Source: a virus
Length of the DNA stretch: 64,000 nucleotides
Virus record (IMG/VR): IMGVR_UViG_3300035670_000089
Location: 1-64,000 of that record
Direction: 5' to 3' (one strand)
In this document: positions 1,759-54,559 of the stretch, one piece after another
How the letters are laid out: each line of letters starts with the position of its first letter
How positions within the stretch are numbered: position 1 is the stretch's first letter
Notes under the pieces: model-generated
The model's input: only the letters and a program-made list of their open reading frames with translations
Told to the model about the DNA's origin: nothing
Database searches by the model: none
Position numbers and translations under genes: made by a program

Positions 1759-1814
1759 AGATATAGGTGAGGTTTGTGCCCAAAGTAAAGACAAAACCTA
1801 AGGAGAAGTTATCA

Positions 1815-2681
1815 ATGACTACCCTCTGCGATGAAGTAAAGTATGTCATCAACGAAGACAATATTGTATTTTATTACAATAAAGAAATGCGGATTGTAAA
1901 TAAAGAAGATTTATATGTTTACAATTCATTAAGAGAAAGCTTAGTTGCAAATAACAACGAGTCGTTGCGTTATGTTGTGGACACTCGGACGGCCATTAAA
2001 GACAGCATTATCAACAAGGCCGAACTCTTCGGACTCGATAAGCGGATCCGGAAGTTAGACAAGGAGGGACTTCCGTTGGACCCTCTACTTAACTTTGTAG
2101 ATCGTTTACCGGAGAATATGTTGTACGACAATAAGCTCCTGGCGTTAGTGGGAACTACAGAGTTGCCCTTAACGTGGACGGGGGATATTGTGGCATATCA
2201 ACGAGCATCTTGGATTCCCTACGATCGTCGTCAACCACTTGAGAGTTGGGTAAGTGAGTTTAAACCGTACCATCGGGTAAGTTCCGGCTCAAACTCACTT
2301 TTAGTAGTAGGTGGGTTTAATTGGACACAACGGCAATGTGCGGATACCGGGTTAACCTTTGAAGTAATCGTACAGCCCGAGGATATTGTAAATTCTTACT
2401 ACTCTACTCACCAAAAGTCGACAGACTACGGAATGTGGTGTGTAAAAGAAGTGACGCAGTTATCTATCTTAGGGAAGATTGTACAGAACAGTGCGAAGGC
2501 TACTACCGGAGTAGTAGAGTTTGTTAACTCATGTAGTGAGTTAGGAGACCAAATGGTAGTGCGGCTGCCCTATAATATGAGTACTGCCTCAAGAATGGTT
2601 AGCGCTATGTTTAGCGTCCCTGAAGGAGCTAAATATAATAAGATGGCTGTCACCTCCGTGCCCGTCAGCGTAAGCTGTTAA
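1815..2681 (+). CDS. rIIB-like protein
   Basis: This 288-residue protein resembles the rIIB-like proteins of large phages in its order of motifs: a segment 'LLNFVDRLPEN...LLALVGTTELPLT' followed by 'TGDIVAYQRASW', then a C-terminal block CADTGLTFEVIVQPEDIV ending in a 'WCVKEV' strand. In T4, rIIA and rIIB are membrane-associated proteins involved in lysis timing and exclusion. Here the next gene is an rIIA-like GHKL ATPase, which supports the pairing. I chose ATG at 1815 because AAGGAG lies about ten bases upstream and a good promoter ends at 1758; an upstream GTG at 1767 would leave no leader. A strong terminator follows the stop. The assignment rests on motif order, not on high identity. 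Confidence 0.55.
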   Translation: MTTLCDEVKYVINEDNIVFYYNKEMRIVNKEDLYVYNSLRESLVANNNESLRYVVDTRTAIKDSIINKAELFGLDKRIRKLDKEGLPLDPLLNFVDRLPENMLYDNKLLALVGTTELPLTWTGDIVAYQRASWIPYDRRQPLESWVSEFKPYHRVSSGSNSLLVVGGFNWTQRQCADTGLTFEVIVQPEDIVNSYYSTHQKSTDYGMWCVKEVTQLSILGKIVQNSAKATTGVVEFVNSCSELGDQMVVRLPYNMSTASRMVSAMFSVPEGAKYNKMAVTSVPVSVSC

Positions 2682-4931: not shown

Positions 4932-5240
4932 ATGACCGACGTAAATGTATCAGAACTGTTCGACAATTACGAAGAAGACTTTACCGACGAGGTATTGGAA
5001 GAAACGTTCGACGCGTCCAAGCAGGTTATTATCCGTTACGGAACGGAAGAGTTTGCGGCTACCGTCAAGACCGGGCAGACTCTAATCGATATTGTTCGGG
5101 AGCGTAGCGGGGAAATCGGCGTGAGTGATATTCACCGTCTTAACTTCAAAGTTGAGACTGTCTATGTCACTCCGGATTACACCCCCAAACCCGGGGAAGT
5201 AATCACCGCCTCCGCCAACTCCGACAGTAAAGGGTACTAA
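4932..5240 (+). CDS. Candidate ubiquitin-like (beta-grasp) modifier protein
   Basis: This 102-residue acidic protein has a pattern expected of a beta-grasp fold after a ~25-residue tail: strand QVIIRYG (32-38), strand EEFAATV, helix TLIDIVRERSGEIG, a later strand VETVYVTP, and KPGEVITASA near the end. It ends ...SDSKGY, with a penultimate glycine, comparable to the GTKG end of PRTRC protein C. The gene lies directly before E2-like, JAMM and ThiF-like genes, which is the best argument for its role as the conjugated modifier. RBS GGAG lies just before ATG 4932. Its arginine codons are CGT/CGG with no AGA, unlike its neighbours, and a strong terminator follows, both suggesting high expression. 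By sequence alone the family match is weak. Confidence 0.6.
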   Translation: MTDVNVSELFDNYEEDFTDEVLEETFDASKQVIIRYGTEEFAATVKTGQTLIDIVRERSGEIGVSDIHRLNFKVETVYVTPDYTPKPGEVITASANSDSKGY

Positions 5241-5252
5241 ACTCTAATCTAC

Positions 5253-5280
5253 AAGGCTCCTCCACAGGAGCCTTTTTATT
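5253..5280 (+). terminator. Rho-independent terminator between the modifier and the E2-like gene
   Basis: AAGGCTCCT (5253-5261) pairs perfectly with AGGAGCCTT (5266-5274), loop CCAC, with TTTTT running out of the stem. It should reduce transcription into the E2-like gene, so the small modifier would be made in excess over the enzymes. Confidence 0.9.
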
Positions 5281-5298
5281 TTTGAAGGAACCTGCAAA

Positions 5299-6801
5299 AT
5301 GTATAGATTCTTTTTTCCAAAGAATGCAACACATAAAGCTTTAATTCTAGAGAGTAGAAACATCGAAACTTCATGCGACGATCTCAAGAAGTTTGAGCTT
5401 CGGATTCTTGTCGATACTGCCCCTTTAGAACAGGAGGTATATTTAGACGAGGAGATTTTAGAGGAAGAAGCCGAGAATCTCTGTCAGAACTGCTCTATGT
5501 GGAATTACGGGCCAACCCACACCAAAATCCAGCAGGACTTAGTCGAACAACTTAAAGACCCCGAGAGGTTTGACAAGATTGTGAGTACCTGTAATTGGTT
5601 AGACGTGGAGGATATTAACAAATATCGTAACGACTTAAAATCATTTGTACAGCTCTTAGACTGGAGACATGGTGTTGTCCAGGATAAGATAAAAAGGTAT
5701 TACGAAAAGAATACCGATAAATGCGCGGGTAAAAGTAAGATGCACTCCTTGTTCGGCGGCGGGGCACCTATCCTAGAAAAGCCTTGTCGAGCAGGAAACG
5801 AACTTGCGTATACGTTAAAGATTAACGTACCCAGTCTTACTTGGGAACAACATATTACTTTCTTCCTCGATAACTTCTATTTAGGGCAGGACTCTAGAGA
5901 GTTTAGTATATTCGAGAATGGGGTAGGGCAACTGTTAGAGTACTTTAAGAATAATTGGCACTGCTATGAATTCTATCCGTATAGACTACCAAATGTATAC
6001 GAGTACGGAAAGATCTGTTGGGGAGATATTTCTACTCCTGCTGATTTAAGAGAAGCACAAAATGAATTCTACAGCGCCGCCTTCAATAAAGACCTGGCGC
6101 CCACACAGAATCGAGAAGGAAGCGACGATTATCCGTATAAGACAACTTACGAGCACCTTAAATACTACCGCGGAGGGGATGACATTCCCAGTACAGAGAA
6201 CTTAAGTATTTACACAAACGACGTAGTGAATATCCCTGTACCTAAAGAAGCCTTAGGGATATTGATATTTGAGAACGGTAAGTACCGCGCGAATCTTTAC
6301 AGTACAACGGAGACATCTGTCGGGTATAACACTAAAATAAAAATCGTTGCCCGATTTACTCTAGCCTTCATAACCACGTATGATCGCAGTACGAATATCG
6401 TTGACATAGTTGTACCGTTCCAGCACGGCTGTTTCCATACCTATAAGGATATTGAGATGCCGCCGACGTATAGCGTAAATGCCGAAAAGGTAAAATGTCT
6501 ACTGAAGGAGTACCGGGAGTACGCTAAATGTTGCGATAATTACACCACAGAACTAGAAGATCCTCAAGAAGAGCTAAAAGATCTAATCGAGTATGTCACT
6601 CAACATCATCTATTACAAGAGGACTTGTCTCAACTGCGCGAGGCATTACTGGAAGAGTTAAAAGAAATTCCAGACTGCGTAAGAGTAAGAGAGATAGTCA
6701 CCATAATAGAGGTTGCTATCCAAGACTCCCTTTATAAACGATTGGGAGAGTTATACAAAGGTAAATATTACGAGGTACCACAACATGCTTTCATTGTCTA
6801 A
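5299..6801 (+). CDS. E2-like protein (PRTRC protein B / Prok-E2-like core) with large extensions
   Basis: The centre of this 500-residue protein contains PNVYEYGKICWGDISTP (231-247) followed by an aromatic NEFYSAAFNKDL (255-266). This matches the hallmark of the prokaryotic E2-like family of PRTRC protein B, whose consensus as I remember it runs 'P-x-N-V-x-x-x-G-x-V-C-x-G ... aFF-S-F'. C240 is the predicted thioester cysteine. The ~220 residues before it and ~230 after it, including an acidic helical C-terminus, are unassigned and make the protein longer than typical E2-like proteins. GAAGGA precedes ATG 5299. The stop overlaps the start of the JAMM gene by 17 bases, implying translational coupling. 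The motif is convincing; E2 activity is inference. Confidence 0.7.
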   Translation: MYRFFFPKNATHKALILESRNIETSCDDLKKFELRILVDTAPLEQEVYLDEEILEEEAENLCQNCSMWNYGPTHTKIQQDLVEQLKDPERFDKIVSTCNWLDVEDINKYRNDLKSFVQLLDWRHGVVQDKIKRYYEKNTDKCAGKSKMHSLFGGGAPILEKPCRAGNELAYTLKINVPSLTWEQHITFFLDNFYLGQDSREFSIFENGVGQLLEYFKNNWHCYEFYPYRLPNVYEYGKICWGDISTPADLREAQNEFYSAAFNKDLAPTQNREGSDDYPYKTTYEHLKYYRGGDDIPSTENLSIYTNDVVNIPVPKEALGILIFENGKYRANLYSTTETSVGYNTKIKIVARFTLAFITTYDRSTNIVDIVVPFQHGCFHTYKDIEMPPTYSVNAEKVKCLLKEYREYAKCCDNYTTELEDPQEELKDLIEYVTQHHLLQEDLSQLREALLEELKEIPDCVRVREIVTIIEVAIQDSLYKRLGELYKGKYYEVPQHAFIV

Positions 6802-7945
6802 TGCGCCCCAAACTCAAGAACGAGTATCATTCCTCCGTACAAAGGACGGATGTTATAAACTAAACCGGAGTCCGTATTGGGGAACTTACTACACCAAGAT
6901 TAATGACCCTAAAGGAGTAGATACCCCGAAGGACATCAATTGTCTACAACTCAAAGATAACTTTGAGAAGCTACCCTTTGATCTTCTAGGAGGAATTGTA
7001 ACCTTCTTCCGAGAGTATATGACAAAACAAAACGGTCGATATATCGAAGGAGCAACCGAGGTATCGGTCTGTCTACTTCGCTCTGAAACCGACCCGTCTC
7101 AATGGAAGGTAGTTGTACCTCTGCAAGAAGTAACGGCGGTGACTGTAGACGCACGCACTGAATATAGTTGCGATCTGTTTACCGGAGAAGAATATACTGT
7201 ATTCCCTCCTGAAGGTTGGCTCCATGCAGGCAGCCTCCACAGCCACCAACAAATGGATGCCTTTTGGAGCAGTCGGGATGACCAGGGAGAGTTAGAGGTA
7301 CCGGGGATGCATTGTACGGTAGGTTCTATTACCGACCATTCTTTCTCTATTTGCAGTTCTATCGTTCTAAATAAGAACCGCTATATATACGACCCGCGGC
7401 ATTTGTTAGAGATTCCGCCGAACAGTGTAGCTCCCTCGCCTACCTCGCCTAAGTCAATTTATAGCGCAACCCGGACTAAAGGAATCACTATCAACTTTAG
7501 CGAGAAGGTAGAAATCTCTGATGTCTGTCATAACTACGTCAATTTACCAAAAGTGTCCGCTACCTATTCTCACTACCGTAAGCCCAACGTTAAAATTGGT
7601 CTAGCCAATACTTCATACGAGTATGACGATTGGTACTACGGAAGTAGTTACAGTGGGCTCGGCGGAGCGTTCGGGGACGTTGGCTGGTATAACAGTTTTG
7701 AAGAGAAGGAAGAACTCGAGAAACAAGTAAAGCCGTGGTTAGAGAAAGTTGGCAACTTAGTGGAACCCGAGTACCCGGTTAATGTATCGATTAAGGAAGC
7801 TCTAGTGGAGTTAAACGAAGCCTTAGAGAAGTTGTGCCTGGTAGAAGGCGGGCACCAACTAATCGCGGCTTGTATTGGAAAGCATCTAGACTTCCCAACC
7901 AATTTGGAAGAAGCCGAGAAGATTGTTGAGTACCTGCTTGACTAA
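6785..7945 (+). CDS. JAB/MPN (JAMM) metalloisopeptidase, PRTRC protein A-like
   Basis: This 386-residue protein has a complete JAMM zinc motif: SLHSHQQMDAFWSSRDDQGE around residues 150-169 gives H152-x-H154-x7-S162-x2-D165. The expected upstream glutamate is probably E89 or E92 in YIEGATEVSV. The following MHCTVGSITDHSFS also resembles the strand after the motif in PRTRC protein A. Such enzymes cleave isopeptide or peptide bonds after ubiquitin-like tails, so it could trim the final Tyr of the modifier or remove it from targets. I chose ATG 6785 (GAGG just upstream), overlapping the E2-like gene; an in-frame TTG at 6713 would lie deep inside that gene. The C-terminal ~150 residues end in an acidic helical region and are unassigned. 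Confidence 0.82.
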   Translation: MLSLSNAPQTQERVSFLRTKDGCYKLNRSPYWGTYYTKINDPKGVDTPKDINCLQLKDNFEKLPFDLLGGIVTFFREYMTKQNGRYIEGATEVSVCLLRSETDPSQWKVVVPLQEVTAVTVDARTEYSCDLFTGEEYTVFPPEGWLHAGSLHSHQQMDAFWSSRDDQGELEVPGMHCTVGSITDHSFSICSSIVLNKNRYIYDPRHLLEIPPNSVAPSPTSPKSIYSATRTKGITINFSEKVEISDVCHNYVNLPKVSATYSHYRKPNVKIGLANTSYEYDDWYYGSSYSGLGGAFGDVGWYNSFEEKEELEKQVKPWLEKVGNLVEPEYPVNVSIKEALVELNEALEKLCLVEGGHQLIAACIGKHLDFPTNLEEAEKIVEYLLD

Positions 7946-7952
7946 AGACAGT

Positions 7953-7972
7953 GGGGGTTTTATCCCCCTTTT
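7953..7972 (+). terminator. Weak terminator-like hairpin after the JAMM gene
   Basis: GGGGG (7953-7957) pairs with CCCCC (7964-7968) around the loop TTTTAT, followed by TTTT. The stem is short, so termination may be partial. Confidence 0.6.
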
Positions 7973-7992
7973 AACCCATTCGCAGTTTTACT

Positions 7993-8715
7993 ATGAAATT
8001 TAGCACTTGCCATATCATTGGAGCCGGGGGTACCGGAACCATCTTGATGGAACCTCTTATCCGGATGTTATCGTACCATCCAAATGGAACAAGGAAGTTC
8101 TATGTATACGACAAAGACCATTACGAACCGAAGAATAACGTAAGACAACTCTTCGACCCGCAGTACTGCGGTATGAATAAAGCGTTAGCCGCCGAGGAAC
8201 GATATAAGAGTATCTGCGATATCACCGGCATCCCTGAATACGTTAAGCGGCGGGAGTTTGGGGGGATGATTAGTAATGTCTACGATAGTTATAACGACGG
8301 GGCGGTTCTCATTATTCTAGCCGTCGACAACGAACGCACACGACATGAAGTCATTAAAGACTTGGATGAATTGAATCCACGTATCGACTTCGCGTGTGTC
8401 CTCCCCGGGAATGAATATAACACCGCCTCCTGTGTCTGGTATAACCGCGTAAAAGGGATGCTCAAACCTATCCACCCGTTTGAAGTCGTTACTAACTTTG
8501 CTGTCCCGACCGATCAACACCCAGGCAGTTGTGGATACGAGGCGGTCTCATCACCCCAGTTGATTAATGCGAACTTCGCTTCTGCCTTAATTACCTGTGA
8601 AGTGGTCTACGCCTTACTCGAGGATAAGAATCTTCCCTTCCGGGTTAACTACAGCAGTACTGAACTGAATATGTATACGGAAGGACGATTCCTCCCTGTC
8701 CAAGCCCTGATTTAA
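7993..8715 (+). CDS. ThiF/E1-like activating protein (PRTRC ThiF-like)
   Basis: This 240-residue protein has the Rossmann ATP-binding loop of E1/ThiF/MoeB enzymes (IIGAGGTGT, residues 8-16), an acidic residue after the next strand (VYDKD, D40), the arginine-finger-like NNVRQLF (48-54) and the conserved lysine in MNKALAA (K64). D112 in LAVDNERTR fits the E1 motif after strand 6. These enzymes adenylate the C-terminal glycine of ubiquitin-like proteins. C180 in GSCGYEA is a possible thioester site. Short length and the NVRQLF motif match the PRTRC ThiF family, and it closes the four-gene module 48 bases after the JAMM gene. There is no zinc-binding CxxC pair as in MoeB. Confidence 0.85.
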   Translation: MKFSTCHIIGAGGTGTILMEPLIRMLSYHPNGTRKFYVYDKDHYEPKNNVRQLFDPQYCGMNKALAAEERYKSICDITGIPEYVKRREFGGMISNVYDSYNDGAVLIILAVDNERTRHEVIKDLDELNPRIDFACVLPGNEYNTASCVWYNRVKGMLKPIHPFEVVTNFAVPTDQHPGSCGYEAVSSPQLINANFASALITCEVVYALLEDKNLPFRVNYSSTELNMYTEGRFLPVQALI

Positions 8716-11272: not shown

Positions 11273-11419
11273 ATGAAAGCACTGTGGAAAAAAGAGATGG
11301 ACAAGATGCTAAAGAAATATTGCGAGAAGGAAGGACTAGACCCCAGAACCTTGGAGCCTATCCCAAGTCTTAAGAGTGACCGTAATAACCCCGTCGAGAT
11401 GAGTAACTCGAGAAACTAA
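11273..11419 (+). CDS. Short ORF after thyX, overlapped by the recombinase gene
   Basis: The ATG at 11273 starts two bases after the thyX stop and gives 48 residues (MKALWKKEMDKMLKKYCEKE...). Residues 1-20 form a charged amphipathic helix. The last 84 bases run antisense to the 3' end of the serine recombinase gene, so the protein may have been cut short when the recombinase arrived, or the frame may not be used. No family is recognised. Confidence 0.4.
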   Translation: MKALWKKEMDKMLKKYCEKEGLDPRTLEPIPSLKSDRNNPVEMSNSRN

Positions 11420-12814
11420 TGCATCAAAGATAAGTTTAAGTCCAGATACATCTGTCTCTTCCCAAAATCCCGGTTGTGTGATAATGCGTTGTAGTTTAGA
11501 TAGATCGTATTTATATTCAAAAGTCTCTTCAAGCAGTTTACTTTTTAGAATAGTAAGCTGCTTTCTTTTCAACTCAATAATATCCACCAAGTCGGGGTCT
11601 TGTAGGGATTCTAGTTTATGTATACGAGTACAGAGTTCTACATATTCTGAAGACTCTTGAAGTATGGACTCACTATCTGAAACATCTTTTTGAGTCCAAA
11701 CTAAAGATAACTCTTCCGCCCGATCCATGATAGCCTCAATAGTCTTCTGGACATAGTCCTCCAAATGATAACCATGGCTACCTCTCTGGGAACATTCTGG
11801 TAATCCTAATCGGGAATAAAAGCGGGTATCGCAGTATAAATAAGTATAACGGAGTTTATTGCGTCTATTGATGCTAGTGCAACAGCGCATCTTCGTACCA
11901 CACTCTCCGCAGAAAATTAAACCAGATAGAGGATTAAGGATAGGGCGGTGTTTAGATGTATCGCCGCGGAATTTTGATCCTATAGATAAATAGTATTTAA
12001 TCTCGGACCATTCCTCCATTGATAATAAGGCTGGAGGATTATAATCCGAGGCCTGCCTTTTGTCCTTATCCTTCCAAAAATATATCAATTCTCCTCTCAA
12101 AATAGGTATGTTTAACCAATACTTAAACCCTACCGCTGTAAGCGGGAATACCTCGCCCTTCTTCGGGCGCCCTTGAATCTTAACATTGTACTTAGAGACC
12201 ATTGTACTTAATGTTTTTCGGAGAGACCAGTTATCCAAATAAAGCTCTATAAGCTCTCTAGCGACTTGAGCTTTGGTCTTATTAGTATCAAGAAAGAGAG
12301 AGTCGTCTAGGATAACTTTACCTTCAGGATTTAAACGATATCCAAAGGGAGTGGCGCAGCTTTTGTTATGAGCGCGGCGATATTTCATTCCTTGGATAGA
12401 ATTATATTTATTCATCTTTTGGGTAAGACTGGCCGCGGCGGCCATTACAGTATTGGTAAATTCTCCGTAAGGGGTATCAATATCTATACGCCCTTTATCT
12501 AATAAAACTACTTCTACTCCTAACTTCTGTAACTCTTCCGCTGCGTGTTCCCAATCCAGGACATTACGAGTAAATCTATCAAAACAAGGAACCACCAATA
12601 CATTTGATGTTCCAGTGCGTAACCGCTCCATTACAATCTGGTAACCGGCTCTTTTAGAAGTAGCCCCGGACTCAATATCCCAAAAGATATTTTCCTCGGA
12701 CACTCCATACTTACGGAGTTGTTGTATATATCTCTCTAGGGCATGTCCTTCTGTAAACTGTCTCTGAGTTGATACTCTACAATACCCTATTAATCTCTTG
12801 TCCTCCTTACCCAT
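11336..12814 (-). CDS. Large serine recombinase (resolvase/integrase family)
   Basis: This 492-residue protein has the serine-recombinase catalytic domain at its N-terminus: YCRVSTQRQ with nucleophile S15, DIESGATSKRAGYQ (46-59) and FDRFTRN (78-84). A recombinase DNA-binding domain follows (PFGYRLNPEGKV from about 156), then a zinc ribbon (FCGECGTKMR with C302/C305; YCDTR C328; C341) and a charged, possibly coiled-coil tail. This layout and size fit large serine recombinases that integrate phages or excise DNA elements. It is opposite in direction to the genes on both sides. A 48-bp imperfect inverted repeat lies 50 bp upstream of its start. Whether it is the phage integrase or a passenger element cannot be decided here. 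Confidence 0.9.
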   Translation of the reverse strand: MGKEDKRLIGYCRVSTQRQFTEGHALERYIQQLRKYGVSEENIFWDIESGATSKRAGYQIVMERLRTGTSNVLVVPCFDRFTRNVLDWEHAAEELQKLGVEVVLLDKGRIDIDTPYGEFTNTVMAAAASLTQKMNKYNSIQGMKYRRAHNKSCATPFGYRLNPEGKVILDDSLFLDTNKTKAQVARELIELYLDNWSLRKTLSTMVSKYNVKIQGRPKKGEVFPLTAVGFKYWLNIPILRGELIYFWKDKDKRQASDYNPPALLSMEEWSEIKYYLSIGSKFRGDTSKHRPILNPLSGLIFCGECGTKMRCCTSINRRNKLRYTYLYCDTRFYSRLGLPECSQRGSHGYHLEDYVQKTIEAIMDRAEELSLVWTQKDVSDSESILQESSEYVELCTRIHKLESLQDPDLVDIIELKRKQLTILKSKLLEETFEYKYDLSKLQRIITQPGFWEETDVSGLKLIFDALVSRVTHLDGVITVTLKTWDRLQGSGV

Positions 12815-23565: not shown

Positions 23566-26412
23566 ATGTTTATCGGCCCGAACTTTCTATCGGAGTCTAT
23601 CTCAACCTCCCAAAAATCCATACCCAACGTAGCTCAAGATTACGATTTCCTCCCCGACAATCCCGAGTGGTTAACCCCCGACGCGCTATTCACTCTGCAA
23701 AACGGGTATCTACATGAGGGGGAAACCACAAAAGAGATGTACATGCGAGTCTCTAAAGCCTCGGCGCATCGTCTCCACAAACCGGAATTAGCCGACGTCT
23801 TCTTCTCTCTATTCTGGTTAGGTTGGCTTGGCGGCGCTACTCCTGTCTTAGCCAACATGGGTAATGAACGAGGACTCCCTATCTCTTGTTACTCTCTCGA
23901 AGTAGAAGACTCCCTCTCGGGTATATTTGACAGTGTTGGAGAACTCGCACATCTTTCCTCCAAAGGAGGAGGAGTAGGAATCTACGCCGGCAATATTCGA
24001 GGTAGAGGCTCCTATATCCAAGGAGGAGGGAGATCCCACGGCGTTGTACCTTGGTGTAAAAACTTCGATAGCGCCACCGCTTCGGTTAGTCAATCCAATG
24101 TCCGACGCGGCGCTAGTGCAGTATACCTCCCCTTCTCCCACAGCGACATTCGAGAATTCCTTCGTATCCGTCGACCACAAGGAGATGAAAATCTACGGTG
24201 TATGAATATACATCACGCCGTTTGTCTAACCGACGAAGACATGGAACGGATAGTAGCCCGCGAACCCGAAGCGTTTGAGTTGTGGAAAGAAATCCTCCGC
24301 ACCCGCGTTGAAACCGGCGAACCCTTCCTCTTCTTTACCGACAACGTTAACCGTAACTCCCCTCCCGGTTATATCAAACATGGCTTAACGGTTAAGACTA
24401 GTAACATCTGTCTGTTGGGAGAAGAGTTAGTTACCACATCAGAAGGACCTAAAGCAATAAAAGAGCTAGTAGGTAAGACTGTAACCATCTGGGATGGAGA
24501 GAAGTGGGTAGAGAATAGCTCCTTTGGGTATAAGGGACACGCAAACCAACTGGTGGAGGTGACGTTCCGAGACGGGAGTAAAACCAGAACTACCTTAAAC
24601 CACCGTTTTCCAACGGAAGCTTTCGGCTTTGTAGAAGCTAAAGACCTTAAGCACGGTATGACTGTAGAGACTCACACGATTCAATATAGCGGAAACGTTG
24701 AGTTAGAAGCAGCGTACCTTAAAGGCTTTTTAACCGCCGACGGGACTAGTCACAATGACAAACCTATTCTATGGTTGTACGACACTAAGTACATGTGTCA
24801 GGAAAGAATTCTATCCGCCGTTAACTCTTTGCCAGCCGACTTGTCCTACAACGAGGGTTGTATAACAGAAGCCGGCGTCAGGGCTGCTGGAGACAATCGA
24901 GTAAATGTCTTAGGACTAACCGCGCGGAAAAATAATCTTCTGCCTTGGTGTAAAGAGTACAAGAAGGAACTACCTAAAGAATACTTAGACTGGACTCTAA
25001 ACAGTAAAGCAGAATTTCTAGCTGGAGTCTTTGACGGAGATGGCACCGTGGTAAATAACAGTTACGCTCGTTGTTACCAACTAGCTAGTGTCCATAAAGG
25101 CTTTCTAGAGCAAGTGCAGTTACTCCTAAAGAGCATCGGCGTACAAAGTACTTTAAACTGTATGCGGGAAGCGGGTAAAACAAACTTCAACGATGGGTAC
25201 GGAGACTATCCTACGTTGGCTTGCTATCGCCTTACGGTATCTAACAGCAGTGCGTATAAGTTAGCGGACATCTGTCACTTCTCAAGACTCGTTAAACTAG
25301 AACGTCCTACAAAACGAGGTGCGTATAAGACTAAACCTACGCACGGGGTTGTTAAGAGTGTAGAGATTATAGACGTAGAGCCCGTTGCTACCTACTGCAC
25401 CGAAGTCCCTAGTACTCACAAATTCGCTCTAACCGACGGAAGAATGACAGGCAACTGTACCGAGGTCACTGGATATACAGATGTAGAGCACACCTTTGTG
25501 TGTTGTCTATCGAGTATGAATCTAACGAAGTGGTGGGAATGGAAGGATACAAAGGCGGTCTATTACGCCACATGGTTCTTAGAAGGAGTCATGATGGAGT
25601 TCATAGCAAAAGCGGAAGATCGTAAGGGATTTGCTAGCGCTGTACGATTCGCTAAGAAGTCTCACATGTTAGGACTAGGCGTGTTGGGTTACCACAGTCT
25701 ACTCCAGAAAGAGAGACTACCTTTTGAGTCCTACGGGGCAAGATTACTAAACCGCGCGATCTTTAAACACCTCGCTAAAGAAACCCACGAAGCCTCAAAA
25801 GACATGGCTAAAGAGTACGGCGAACCTGAATGGTGTAAAGGTACGGGAGTACGCAATACTCATACTACAGCATTAGCCCCAACGGTATCCAACTCTTTGG
25901 TATGTGGACACGTATCCGCCGGGATTGAACCTTGGGCAGCGAACTGTTTCGAGAAGAGAGGCGCTAAGGGTGTAGTGTTATTCTACAATCCTATCTGTCG
26001 GGACATCCTAGCCTCCTATGGACAAGACACAGCGGAAGTATGGGATAGTATCTGTAAAGAGAAAGGTTCCGTACAGCACTTGGATTTCCTTAGTGAGGAA
26101 GATAAAGAGATTCTCTTAACCGCGCGGGAGATTTGTCAAATGGAGATTGTAGAGCAAGCTGCCGAGAGACAAAAATTGATGGATAGCTACTCCCAAGGTC
26201 AAGCGCAAAGCGTGAATCTATTCTTCTCTAAAGACGTAGACCCCACTTACTACGCTAAAGTGCATTATCGTGCCTGGTCATTAGGATTAAAAACTTTATA
26301 CTACTGTCGTAACGAACAATCCTCCAATGTACACTCCTCAGAAAAGCTACTTAAAAAGATGAAACGAGTCGTAAATAACGAGCCAGCGGAATGTACAGCC
26401 TGCCACGGTTAA
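23566..26412 (+). CDS. nrdA: Class I ribonucleotide reductase, large subunit, intein-containing
   Basis: The 948-residue precursor contains a 349-residue intein (residues 282-630); the spliced product would have 599 residues. Extein landmarks are PISCYSLEV (C108, first redox cysteine), SKGGGVGIYAGNIRG, the thiyl-radical site reformed by splicing (TSNI joined to CTEV), FVCCLSSMNL (second redox cysteine region) and a C-terminal CTACHG that should reduce the active-site disulfide. No N-terminal ATP-cone is present, so the usual dATP overall-activity control is absent, as in many phage enzymes. Activity depends on protein splicing because the intein precedes the catalytic cysteine. GAGGA lies before ATG 23566. 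Confidence 0.95.
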   Translation: MFIGPNFLSESISTSQKSIPNVAQDYDFLPDNPEWLTPDALFTLQNGYLHEGETTKEMYMRVSKASAHRLHKPELADVFFSLFWLGWLGGATPVLANMGNERGLPISCYSLEVEDSLSGIFDSVGELAHLSSKGGGVGIYAGNIRGRGSYIQGGGRSHGVVPWCKNFDSATASVSQSNVRRGASAVYLPFSHSDIREFLRIRRPQGDENLRCMNIHHAVCLTDEDMERIVAREPEAFELWKEILRTRVETGEPFLFFTDNVNRNSPPGYIKHGLTVKTSNICLLGEELVTTSEGPKAIKELVGKTVTIWDGEKWVENSSFGYKGHANQLVEVTFRDGSKTRTTLNHRFPTEAFGFVEAKDLKHGMTVETHTIQYSGNVELEAAYLKGFLTADGTSHNDKPILWLYDTKYMCQERILSAVNSLPADLSYNEGCITEAGVRAAGDNRVNVLGLTARKNNLLPWCKEYKKELPKEYLDWTLNSKAEFLAGVFDGDGTVVNNSYARCYQLASVHKGFLEQVQLLLKSIGVQSTLNCMREAGKTNFNDGYGDYPTLACYRLTVSNSSAYKLADICHFSRLVKLERPTKRGAYKTKPTHGVVKSVEIIDVEPVATYCTEVPSTHKFALTDGRMTGNCTEVTGYTDVEHTFVCCLSSMNLTKWWEWKDTKAVYYATWFLEGVMMEFIAKAEDRKGFASAVRFAKKSHMLGLGVLGYHSLLQKERLPFESYGARLLNRAIFKHLAKETHEASKDMAKEYGEPEWCKGTGVRNTHTTALAPTVSNSLVCGHVSAGIEPWAANCFEKRGAKGVVLFYNPICRDILASYGQDTAEVWDSICKEKGSVQHLDFLSEEDKEILLTAREICQMEIVEQAAERQKLMDSYSQGQAQSVNLFFSKDVDPTYYAKVHYRAWSLGLKTLYYCRNEQSSNVHSSEKLLKKMKRVVNNEPAECTACHG
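24409..25455 (+). mobile_element. NrdA intein with LAGLIDADG homing endonuclease
   Basis: The element begins with Cys (CLLGEELVTTSEG), contains the splicing block TTLNHRF (61-67, H65) and ends ...GRMTGN followed by Cys in the host protein. The penultimate residue is Gly where His is usual. Two dodecapeptide-type motifs, LKGFLTADG (104-112) and LAGVFDGDG (204-212), mark a LAGLIDADG homing endonuclease. Insertion is directly before the radical cysteine of the reductase. Confidence 0.92.
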
Positions 26413-51610: not shown

Positions 51611-54559
51611 TCAATATTGGTCAAAGGGATGCACCGCTACTCCCATATCTGAGTTCCCCCAACCGGATTTAGAGTAATTCGTGCGGACACTCCTTACAAA
51701 TTCTTTCCTATCTACAGAGAACCCCTCAACAACACTATCCTTATCGTCTCTAAGACTCTTCTTCCCTTTCTTAAAGGTTAAGGATTGCCCTGATGTAACC
51801 GAACTGGACTTCGCAAGTTCATTCCCTATTAACTGCCAAGTCACCGCGGCTATGCAGTCTGCGATATCCTTACTGTTATGGACGAAAACTCCCGCGCTAA
51901 GGGCAAAATTATCCCATTCATCAACTTCTAAATCGTAAACAGGTACGGCAGTCTCCAATATTACGGGTATAACAGCCCGTACCTTATGGTTATTTCCCTT
52001 TCCTCTATATCTAAAATCTTCCCAACCTTTGTACCCTTGTGAAGCTACACAACGAATTACTGCGTCTTTAGTGCATTTCAAAGTATTGCATACGTCCATA
52101 AGCCGCTTATTACGGTTTTCAAAGGCTTGTACCACTTCCTCAAATGTCACAACACTACGTTGGTTGTCATCCTTAAGGCTATAGGCGTCCCCAGCAGTAA
52201 ATTTGAGATGAAAATATTCTTTCTCGAAACTCTCCCAGGAATCAAATCCGCAATCTCTTAAAAGACGTATCACCAAATTCCTCGATAAATCTAAATAAGT
52301 CGCGGCCTGATGCGCATTAGAGCACCCTACCTTAAGAGCCTCGTATAAAACCGACGTGTCCACATCTCTTCTAAAAAGACCTGTTTTCCTCGCTCTCTCT
52401 AAATACCACTCGGAAGAGCGGCTTCGCATAGACTCAGATCTTTTTCTTCTTGTAGATTCTTTTTTATTAAAAGCAATAGTGCCCTCGGAAAGTTTATGTC
52501 TATACGTAGGATCTTTTTTGTGAGCCTCAGCCGTATGGTAAGAAGTGTGTTGCGATCTTGGTATGACTTCTAAATTCTCCGGGCGGTTATCCGTCTTAAC
52601 GTGATTTTTGTGGTGGACTATCTCACTATCTTCTAGTTCAGGATAACCAAGAGCCATACGATGAGTCCAAATAAACTCTCCGATACTTTTGACTTTTTCG
52701 TAACCTCCGCCTATAGGCCAGGATAAATGTAAAGGCATAAGTCTAGTAACCCCTGGAATAATATCCGCCGCCTTTATATAACTACCGGTTCTGGTCATGA
52801 AAGGATGATCCGGAGTACACCGAATAACTGCCCCATTATCCAAAACAACATCTACTAACTCTTTAACTTCTTTAGTCTTACGCCCTCTAGCCAGACCCGG
52901 GACAACCGTCCCATCAGGTTTACAACTATAAACCCACACTTCTTTACCTTCTAACTCAGCTATAGTAGGGCGAGTACCATCTAATAAAGGAATCCGTGTA
53001 TCCCCCGTGAAACAACCTCCGGGCCTATGGTCGATTTTCACATTCCGGATTAACTCTAAGTTTAGTAGTTCATCCTTTAGTAGATTCGTCCAAGGGGAGT
53101 TCTTCGGTAGATATAATCTATCCTCGTGGAGGAGTTTACGTACAGCGTCATACATCGCCAACTGTTTATTGTTCGCGAAATGTATAGTCTCCGTAGGTAT
53201 CCCGCTGGACTTCAACCGCTGCAAAGTCTCCGCAGATTCCTTTTGGTCCGCGGTTACCTTCGATAAGGGCTGTCTAGCATGTATCTGATAAATACACTGT
53301 TGGACGTTCACAATAGATACCGTAGCGCCATCCACAGGTATCCACGCCATAATCCCATCTATAATGACGCAGTCCTTACCGTCGATATTCTCTAAATGTC
53401 CGTAGGCTAAAGCATATGCGTCCCTGGTGATAGCGGGGTCCAAGTGCATAACCGTATACCCGCGATATACCGGTAAATCTTCTACATTAAGCCGGATTAA
53501 TCGGTCTTCTTGTACTGGTAGTTCCGTTACTCTAAGGAGAGACATCTTACGGAATGCTCTCTTAACCTCTCTCTCTTCTAAGAAGGCGTTCTCGTTTGCC
53601 TGGCGGATTCCTTCGTATAACAACTCCGCTTTCTTGCGGTTAGATATATACATAGAATCCACAACTGGATTATTGCGACTTGCATGGATTGGGTTTACCA
53701 TCCAAGACTTCAAGCGGAAGCCAATCCAACCTGAACTCTGAGTAGAATCCTCGTACAGTTTTACAAGGGCGTCCCCTTCACACCTGGCGGAGGAGATAAT
53801 AACCCGTTTAGCATCACTCGCAAAAGGTAAGCCCCCCGCGCCTAAATCATCCCAAAGGTTCAGGGCGTTAGATTCTCCATTCTTATCGTCGAACATCGCC
53901 CCTTCATCCAAAATAATCAGGATAGGACTACCCCCTACCTGAGTCTCAGACTTAGAGTTACCGGAGTATATATACAACAGCTTCTCGTCATACCGTATCA
54001 TCTTTTCCTGGGCGTCTATTTTACCGGCATCGATAAGCCGCCTCAAGAAGAAGACATTCTGCATCATCGCCTTCGCTTGACCGTAAATAGTCTTACTAGC
54101 TTGTTCAGCAGAAGGAGCAACGCAGATAATCGAGATTAGAGTCGAAGACGCGATTCCATAATTCAACTGTGGAGAATCCATCCGCGCCAAGAGTTCAAAC
54201 TCATAATTAATGATAAGAGACCCCATTAGGGATTTTCCACTACGCCGCCCCGCCTCTAAAACTAAGTTCTGTCTCTTTATTGGACCGTAATCAAAATCGT
54301 AGGTAGTCCTATCCAGGGTCTTCCAGTACTCCAAGATAGAATATTCCTGGTCTGTGAGTTCTACACCGTAGTAGGTCTTTAAGATAAGACGTTGCTGCGG
54401 AGTAAGCTCAATACCCAACGTCTCCTTGTCGACACCCCCGTTGTCGTACCAGTCGATAATGTCGGAGTACTCTACTCCACTGGCGAACTTAGACTCTAAA
54501 TTAGAGACAAACCCGCCAAAGAAATCGCTTACATCAAAAGCCCCTTTAGATATACTCAT
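51611..54559 (-). CDS. terL: Terminase large subunit, intein-containing
   Basis: The 982-residue precursor carries a 380-residue intein; the spliced packaging motor has 602 residues. The ATPase half shows Walker A (VLEAGRRSGKSLMGS, 100-114), Walker B (LIILDEGAMFDD, 214-225) and a coupling segment VIISSARCEG. The RNase H-like nuclease starts at YTVMHLDPAITRDAYALAY (D374) and ends with SKDIADCIAAV, whose acidic residues complete the metal site. The intein splits exactly before that last motif, so cleavage of concatemers requires splicing. It packages DNA into the capsid at the portal vertex. Confidence 0.93.
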   Translation of the reverse strand: MSISKGAFDVSDFFGGFVSNLESKFASGVEYSDIIDWYDNGGVDKETLGIELTPQQRLILKTYYGVELTDQEYSILEYWKTLDRTTYDFDYGPIKRQNLVLEAGRRSGKSLMGSLIINYEFELLARMDSPQLNYGIASSTLISIICVAPSAEQASKTIYGQAKAMMQNVFFLRRLIDAGKIDAQEKMIRYDEKLLYIYSGNSKSETQVGGSPILIILDEGAMFDDKNGESNALNLWDDLGAGGLPFASDAKRVIISSARCEGDALVKLYEDSTQSSGWIGFRLKSWMVNPIHASRNNPVVDSMYISNRKKAELLYEGIRQANENAFLEEREVKRAFRKMSLLRVTELPVQEDRLIRLNVEDLPVYRGYTVMHLDPAITRDAYALAYGHLENIDGKDCVIIDGIMAWIPVDGATVSIVNVQQCIYQIHARQPLSKVTADQKESAETLQRLKSSGIPTETIHFANNKQLAMYDAVRKLLHEDRLYLPKNSPWTNLLKDELLNLELIRNVKIDHRPGGCFTGDTRIPLLDGTRPTIAELEGKEVWVYSCKPDGTVVPGLARGRKTKEVKELVDVVLDNGAVIRCTPDHPFMTRTGSYIKAADIIPGVTRLMPLHLSWPIGGGYEKVKSIGEFIWTHRMALGYPELEDSEIVHHKNHVKTDNRPENLEVIPRSQHTSYHTAEAHKKDPTYRHKLSEGTIAFNKKESTRRKRSESMRSRSSEWYLERARKTGLFRRDVDTSVLYEALKVGCSNAHQAATYLDLSRNLVIRLLRDCGFDSWESFEKEYFHLKFTAGDAYSLKDDNQRSVVTFEEVVQAFENRNKRLMDVCNTLKCTKDAVIRCVASQGYKGWEDFRYRGKGNNHKVRAVIPVILETAVPVYDLEVDEWDNFALSAGVFVHNSKDIADCIAAVTWQLIGNELAKSSSVTSGQSLTFKKGKKSLRDDKDSVVEGFSVDRKEFVRSVRTNYSKSGWGNSDMGVAVHPFDQY
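51875..53014 (-). mobile_element. Terminase intein with HNH homing endonuclease
   Basis: It begins CFTGDTRIPLLDG, contains block B CTPDHPF (T67, H70), and ends VFVHN before a serine in the host protein. The endonuclease is HNH type (EIVHHKNHVKTDNRPENLEV and RSQHTSYH). It is followed by two NUMOD-like helix-turn-helix repeats, each ending in (S/G)W(E)(S/D)F. Inserted at the SKDIAD nuclease motif of TerL. Confidence 0.92.

Follow-up and report, generated by a model that had tools for sequence, protein, structure and literature searches.

Do tailed phages run a ubiquitin-like conjugation pathway of their own? This question is raised by a stretch of 64,000 nucleotides (hereafter, the window), which corresponds to bases 1-64000 of the virus record IMGVR_UViG_3300035670_000089, totalling 97,570 bases. 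Positions 4932-8715 of the window hold a module of four consecutive genes on the plus strand, encoding a ubiquitin-like modifier (Ubl), an E2-like conjugating protein, a JAMM/JAB protease, and an E1-like activating enzyme of the ThiF type. Bacterial Ubl conjugation is known mainly as an antiphage weapon (CBASS and Bil), as well as from an unexplained plasmid cassette (PRTRC). The module described here probably constitutes a reversible ubiquitin/SUMO-like conjugation system run by the phage itself, a prediction based on the gene set, its order, the intact active-site residues, the predicted fold of the modifier, and the reappearance of the whole module in phages that otherwise differ.

The four open reading frames (ORFs) reported in an initial reading of the DNA letters alone (the sequence-only reading) are all present at their coordinates on the plus strand, with 102, 500, 410, and 240 amino acids, and so are the motifs attributed to their products: PNVYEYGKICWGD, which contains C240, in the E2-like protein, HSH-x7-SxxD in the protease, and GAGGTG and NNVRQLF in the E1. 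The proposed resemblance of the three enzymes to PRTRC proteins B, A, and ThiF is also recovered by family models (PRTRC_ThiF, E 5.6e-11; PRTRC_A, E 0.0019; PRTRC_B, E 0.0027), with all scores far below the cut-offs. In alignments including both plasmid and phage relatives, the catalytic residues of E1, E2, and JAB are invariant.

The E1 (7993..8715, plus strand) is a 240-residue protein with a ThiF fold (PF00899, E 6e-13). Its nucleotide-site residues G10, G12, D40, D42, N48, Q52, K63, and D112 are invariant in alignments A1 and A12, as is C180 (8530..8532), the predicted thioester cysteine. When a profile of its clade was compared with solved structures, the NEDD8 E1 (UBA3), UBA5, and Cap2 were nearer than ThiF or MoeB. 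Pattern searches returned no chromosomal relatives of this E1, which is a weak negative.

The JAB/JAMM isopeptidase is encoded by an ORF of 410 residues (6713..7945, plus strand), the probable start of which is the ATG at 6785, overlapping the E2 stop. It matches Prok-JAB with an E value of 0.06, and shares ~38% identity over ~210 residues with phage JABs (E down to 2.5e-49). All the residues of its JAMM metal site (E116, H176, H178, S186, and D189; 7058..7279) are invariant in alignment A3, and the closest solved relative of its profile is BilC, a bacterial Ubl protease (E 0.0013).

The E2-like protein (5299..6801, plus strand; 500 residues) is of the PRTRC_B/Prok-E2_D type, with long extensions. 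Prok-E2_D (PF14460) matches around C240 with an E value of 6e-5, below the family cut-off. This predicted catalytic cysteine (6016..6018, in NVYEYGKICWG) is invariant in alignments A2, A6, and A7; N232, C240, and G242 do not vary among 14 sequences, and the pattern NV-x5-ICWG is invariant within the branch to which the window belongs. A profile of the window clade aligned to PRTRC_B-type E2s with hhalign (probability 95.2, E 2.7e-8, ~40 columns), while a search of solved structures with the E2 profiles gave no matches. The protein is a putative E2, with the fold predicted from the motif.

The first gene of the module (4932..5240, plus strand) encodes the 102-residue modifier, composed of an acidic tail (residues 1-27), a core (residues 28-96), and the C-terminus SDSKGY. 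Family searches gave no convincing match for it, and BLAST linked it to the Ubls of two related phages (E 1e-6 and 4e-5). The proposal that it is a beta-grasp modifier agrees with the AlphaFold model of the core (pLDDT ~85), which is a beta-grasp with strand order β-β-α-β-β-β, and whose best solved matches are SUMO proteins (Foldseek E 2.9e-4, probability 1.00, TM score 0.72 by target length). Its C-terminus holds a conserved KG motif followed by one trailing residue (K-G-Y, 5229..5237), so that processing would need to remove the tyrosine. The same KG is found at the ends of the modifiers of the related contigs G002 (SENKGF), G006 (SESKG), and G003 (SEAKG), in locus L012 (VKGA), and in PRTRC_C (GTKG or GAKG), and the counterparts in phages and plasmids likewise have KG at the end or contain it.

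A hint about this processing is provided by Bacillales plasmids (L004, L006, and L011). In two of them, Ubl and JAB are fused in this order, and the junction reads KKG or TKG. In contrast, a Bacillus velezensis operon in which no JAB was found encodes a separate Ubl whose last three residues are KKG. This comparison is consistent with cleavage by the JAB after KG, and suggests that this is the cleavage site.

The modifier and E2 genes are separated by a hairpin resembling an intrinsic terminator (5253..5283, plus strand; AAGGCTCCTCCACAGGAGCCTT followed by a T-run). A comparable hairpin and T-run follow the Ubl gene in G001 and G006, giving three of the five members of the window branch tested. 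As a general feature of these modules, a terminator after the Ubl gene was ruled out (4 of 38 loci among the matches listed, versus 1.4% of random stretches).

The condition set by the sequence-only reading, that the four genes should co-occur in relatives, was borne out. Viral relatives were collected by matching the JAB site at the DNA level, which yielded at least 120 viral stretches, and these were searched with iterated hidden Markov models (HMMs). All counts that derive from this single-motif pattern are minimum values, with a bias towards JABs containing HSHxxMxAF. As single-protein queries against viral contigs, the ThiF and E2 proteins of the window gave no matches. The iterated HMMs located the E1 in at least 108 of these viral loci, and in 103 of 108, among the matches listed, the JAB gene is followed by the E1 gene on one strand. 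The protein preceding the JAB falls into several groups, and in all four groups examined, an E2-like motif contains an invariant Cys. A long protein is encoded before the JAB in 76 loci, 46 of which have, among the matches listed, a small upstream ORF with a Gly in its last four residues, a count that includes some chance ORFs, although many are recurrent NNKxGG-type proteins.

The branch of the window itself comprises six further contigs (G001-G006, 50-258 kb; tree support 83 to 100 SH-aLRT), with the gene orders Ubl-E2-JAB-E1 or Ubl-JAB-E2-E1. G001 has three further nearby genes in common with the window, whereas G002-G006 share with it no other gene within the stretches compared, which argues that the module travels as a unit. 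One gene of uncharacterised role near the module (window 1767-2681) is common to G001 (L146:1-586), with 35% identity over 193 residues.

Several of the viral records are incomplete, and non-viral elements may be present among IMG/VR contigs. For the system as a whole, this doubt is removed by cultured carriers, namely crAss001, Flavobacterium phage Fpv1, Salmonella phage Arash, and Vibrio phage D69. In crAss001, gp79-gp76 (L154:2232-6642) form a complete Ubl-E2-JAB-E1 set, annotated as two hypothetical proteins, a metalloprotease domain, and a thiamine biosynthesis protein. The set of Arash is complete if an unannotated ORF of 66 residues ending in GTKG is counted (L013:107-307; the GenBank coding sequence at 102-320 lies in a different frame). 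The sequence-only reading, which is partly supported overall, had regarded a phage with the full set as unusual. This view does not hold, given the six additional contigs of the branch, the cultured Salmonella and Vibrio phages, and the other forms present in crAss001 and more than 100 phage contigs.

Some of these loci show peculiarities of their own. Vibrio phage D69 encodes three tandem PRTRC_C-like repeats, each ending in GTKG, upstream of E2, JAB, and E1 (L003:2394-3185), an arrangement reminiscent of a polyubiquitin-type precursor. In Fpv1 (L156:3653-5945), the JAB gene is split in two by an oppositely oriented gene with an endonuclease annotation, which may be a homing element. In the phage contig L012 (3421-5032, minus strand), the E2-like and JAB proteins have extra Cys-rich regions with FYVE/RING-like spacing, which are possible E3-like parts.

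According to established E1-E2-JAMM biochemistry and the conserved active sites, the following chemistry can be proposed. The JAB would shorten the modifier so that it ends in the glycine (...SDSKG), a step that, like the rest of the conjugation chemistry, is inferred. The ThiF-type E1 would then adenylate this glycine and load the modifier on C180, handing it afterwards to C240 of the E2-like protein, which would couple it to lysine residues of selected proteins; a separate E3 is probably not involved. Finally, the JAB would detach the modifier again. The terminator after the modifier gene might render the modifier more abundant than the enzymes.

As for the proteins tagged, the gene context offers a guess, somewhat less than an even bet, that they are phage or host proteins of replication, recombination, or nucleotide metabolism. 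In 48 of 62 sister loci (among the matches listed), annealing proteins (Sak4 or ERF) or a primase-helicase are encoded at most 4 kb downstream. The module of crAss001 is surrounded by genes for a primase, a uracil-DNA glycosylase (UDG), a resolvase, an exonuclease, and a ribonucleotide reductase (RNR), and dnaN, for the beta clamp of DNA polymerase III, or another polymerase III gene lies near JAB-E1 in a gut contig and in plasmids (L002:885-2761, L004, L005, and L006). In the window, MazG lies upstream of the module and a gene for a deoxynucleoside monophosphate (dNMP) kinase-like protein downstream. A broader proposal, slightly more speculative than the guess on targets, is that reversible SUMO-like modification represents a widespread regulatory layer imposed by tailed phages on their own, and host, DNA replication and recombination proteins. 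Such a layer would involve two or more main branches of E1 together with several types of E2, would span viruses as different as crAss-like gut phages and cyanophage-like ones, and would parallel or predate the Bil and PRTRC forms.

Several observations weigh against the conjugation reading or its extension to replication targets. First of all, the alignment of the E2-like protein to known E2-D proteins is confined to the ~40 columns around the cysteine, its AlphaFold model is unusable (pLDDT 44), and the family scores of both E2 and JAB are under the curated cut-offs. Second, the modifier of the closest relative, G001, ends in GNSKA, without the glycine. With respect to the targets, genes near phage replication modules are often placed there for timing only, and the primase of the window is ~8 kb from the module.

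Among the alternatives, the one that survives best, although unlikely, is that the module serves superinfection exclusion or virion modification, tagging structural proteins of competing phages, as Bil does, or those of the phage's own virion. The four components are the same as in Bil, and the nearest solved JAB is BilC. Moreover, the E1 (Gp246), JAB (Gp247), and E2 (Gp248) of Arash have been identified in purified particles with mass spectrometry (PMC10585845), which shows that they are expressed and is compatible with a virion role. Nevertheless, each was represented by 2-5 unique peptides among 116 detected proteins, and the authors of that study noted that some enzymes may be carry-over, being abundant in infected cells (PMC10585845). 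The features that define Bil are also missing, as the modifier has a single Ubl domain, the E1 is short, and CEHH is absent, and the module usually lies among replication and nucleotide genes.

Clearly less probable is a counter-defence function, in which the module would hijack or disarm host conjugation-based immunity (CBASS Cap2/Cap3, or Bil), for example by tagging or untagging defence proteins. The phage setting and a weak match of the E1 to CBASS E1-E2 models (PADLOC, E 1e-6) would fit this role, for which, however, the phage would not need a full set that includes a modifier, and no links to known anti-defence genes were seen. Least probable of all is a sulfur-carrier pathway, in which a Ubl activated by ThiF would donate sulfur, in the manner of ThiS or MoaD, for the thiolation of tRNA, cofactors, or nucleotides. 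In its favour, the annotation of phage homologues reads thiamine biosynthesis ThiF, ThiS and MoaD have the same Ubl fold, and the E1 is short. Against it, this E1 is accompanied by a JAB isopeptidase and an E2-like protein with the Cys, its profile is closer to conjugation E1s than to ThiF, and rhodanese, ThiG, or MoaE-like neighbours were not noticed in the loci read, in which no systematic search for them was made.

The carrier of the module is a tailed phage, whose terminase and tail sheath are closest to those of Microcystis phages such as Ma-LMM01 (31% and 24% identity), and whose baseplate J protein is closest to its counterpart in a Microcoleus phage, so that a cyanobacterial host is likely. 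A gene for an rIIA-like ATPase (phrog_612, E 1e-55) precedes the module. Elsewhere in the genome, two giant ORFs of 6999 and 3747 residues have been observed (window 29918-50917, minus strand, and L153:2395-13638), the first of which contains, as judged by eye, tape-measure-like and cell-wall-enzyme-like stretches. The RNR and terminase genes (window 23566-26412 and 51611-54559) appear to be interrupted by inteins, and the terminase insert resembles inserts within unrelated phage genes. A serine recombinase of 492 residues (window 11336-12814, minus strand) is a possible integrase in a phage otherwise akin to Microcystis myoviruses.

The literature search, which covered few subscription papers or preprints, found no description of a phage-encoded Ubl-E2-JAB-E1 set. 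In existing phage annotations, its parts appear as "hypothetical", "structural protein", "metalloprotease", or "thiamine biosynthesis protein", and the crAss-type E1, E2, and JAB are listed in PHROGs with unknown function. The data presented here indicate that phages themselves carry complete Ubl-conjugation sets, with at least two main E1 branches, and that protein tagging by phages looks common and has hardly been studied. Since cultured carriers exist, what phages tag, and why, can be directly addressed by proteomics, and the phage modules could also explain the function of the plasmid PRTRC cassette.

One of the closest known arrangements is the PRTRC operon of plasmids (ParB-E-C-F-B-A-ThiF), in which the E2, JAB, and E1 correspond to the B, A, and ThiF families. 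The order C...B-A-ThiF is kept, with the modifier in the C position (Ubl-E2-JAB-E1, as in L007) and KG at its C-terminus. In contrast, the E2, JAB, and E1 of the window score 17.1, 17.8, and 42.2 bits, versus NCBIfam cut-offs of 131.45, 101.8, and 144.75 for PRTRC B, A, and ThiF, respectively. Furthermore, no separate F or E gene was recognised, the modifier is not recognisably C by sequence, and the E2 has long extra regions. The sequence-only reading had seen no ParB, and neither TIGR03734 nor PF02195 (ParB_N) is matched across the whole 97.6-kb record, which may be a fragment, whereas controls were matched. The actin-like protein D was also unmatched, but control genomes gave no matches either. 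Membership of PRTRC was ruled out by the unmatched ParB and the enzyme scores under the cut-offs.

In content, the module fits operon type 6d, predicted in 2006 by Iyer, Burroughs, and Aravind as a small Ubl with a C-terminal Gly, an E2, a JAB, and an unfused E1 (PMC1779556). Both combine a Ubl, an E2 with the Cys but without the usual His, a JAB, and an unfused E1. The window differs in its tailed-phage carrier, in the residue after the glycine, in the absence of a separate helical gene within the cluster, whose product might be fused into the E2 extensions, and in lacking the absolutely conserved downstream His, as no invariant His appears in E2-D alignments A2, A6, and A7.

The parallel drawn earlier with Bil holds for content, since Ubl, E2, deubiquitinase, and E1 are adjacent genes in both and the JAB profile is nearest to BilC. 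BilABCD is defined by a modifier with two Ubl domains, an E1 that has two adenylation domains, one inactive and one active, and a helical Cys domain, and a CEHH motif in the E2 (PMC11354881). Contrary to this definition, the window encodes a modifier with one beta-grasp core in 102 residues, an E1 of 240 residues with one ThiF domain and neither the inactive adenylation domain nor the helical Cys domain, and an E2 without CEHH, in which the ~30 residues following C240 include no His. On these three grounds, Bil membership was ruled out. Type II CBASS (Cap2/Cap3) and 6A-MBL have a related E1 adenylation domain and a JAB, whereas the window has separate E1 and E2 proteins and its own modifier, without a cyclase or a metallo-beta-lactamase. 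Two further candidates were discarded: a tail Ubl of the lambda TAPI type, where E1 and E2 are absent (PMC1779556), and a plain thiamine or molybdopterin enzyme.

Among phages, crAss001 gp76-gp79 and a clade of ~40 members (c41) also carry Ubl-E2-JAB-E1 in the same order. However, their E1 belongs to the other main branch of the tree, their E2 signatures are HSH...CTG, or YGxVC plus a Cys cluster, and their modifiers end in GG or SG, some with tails. The module of the window would therefore work like the known systems compared here, but belongs to neither PRTRC nor Bil, and is best described as a phage branch within the half of the E1 tree that is PRTRC-like.

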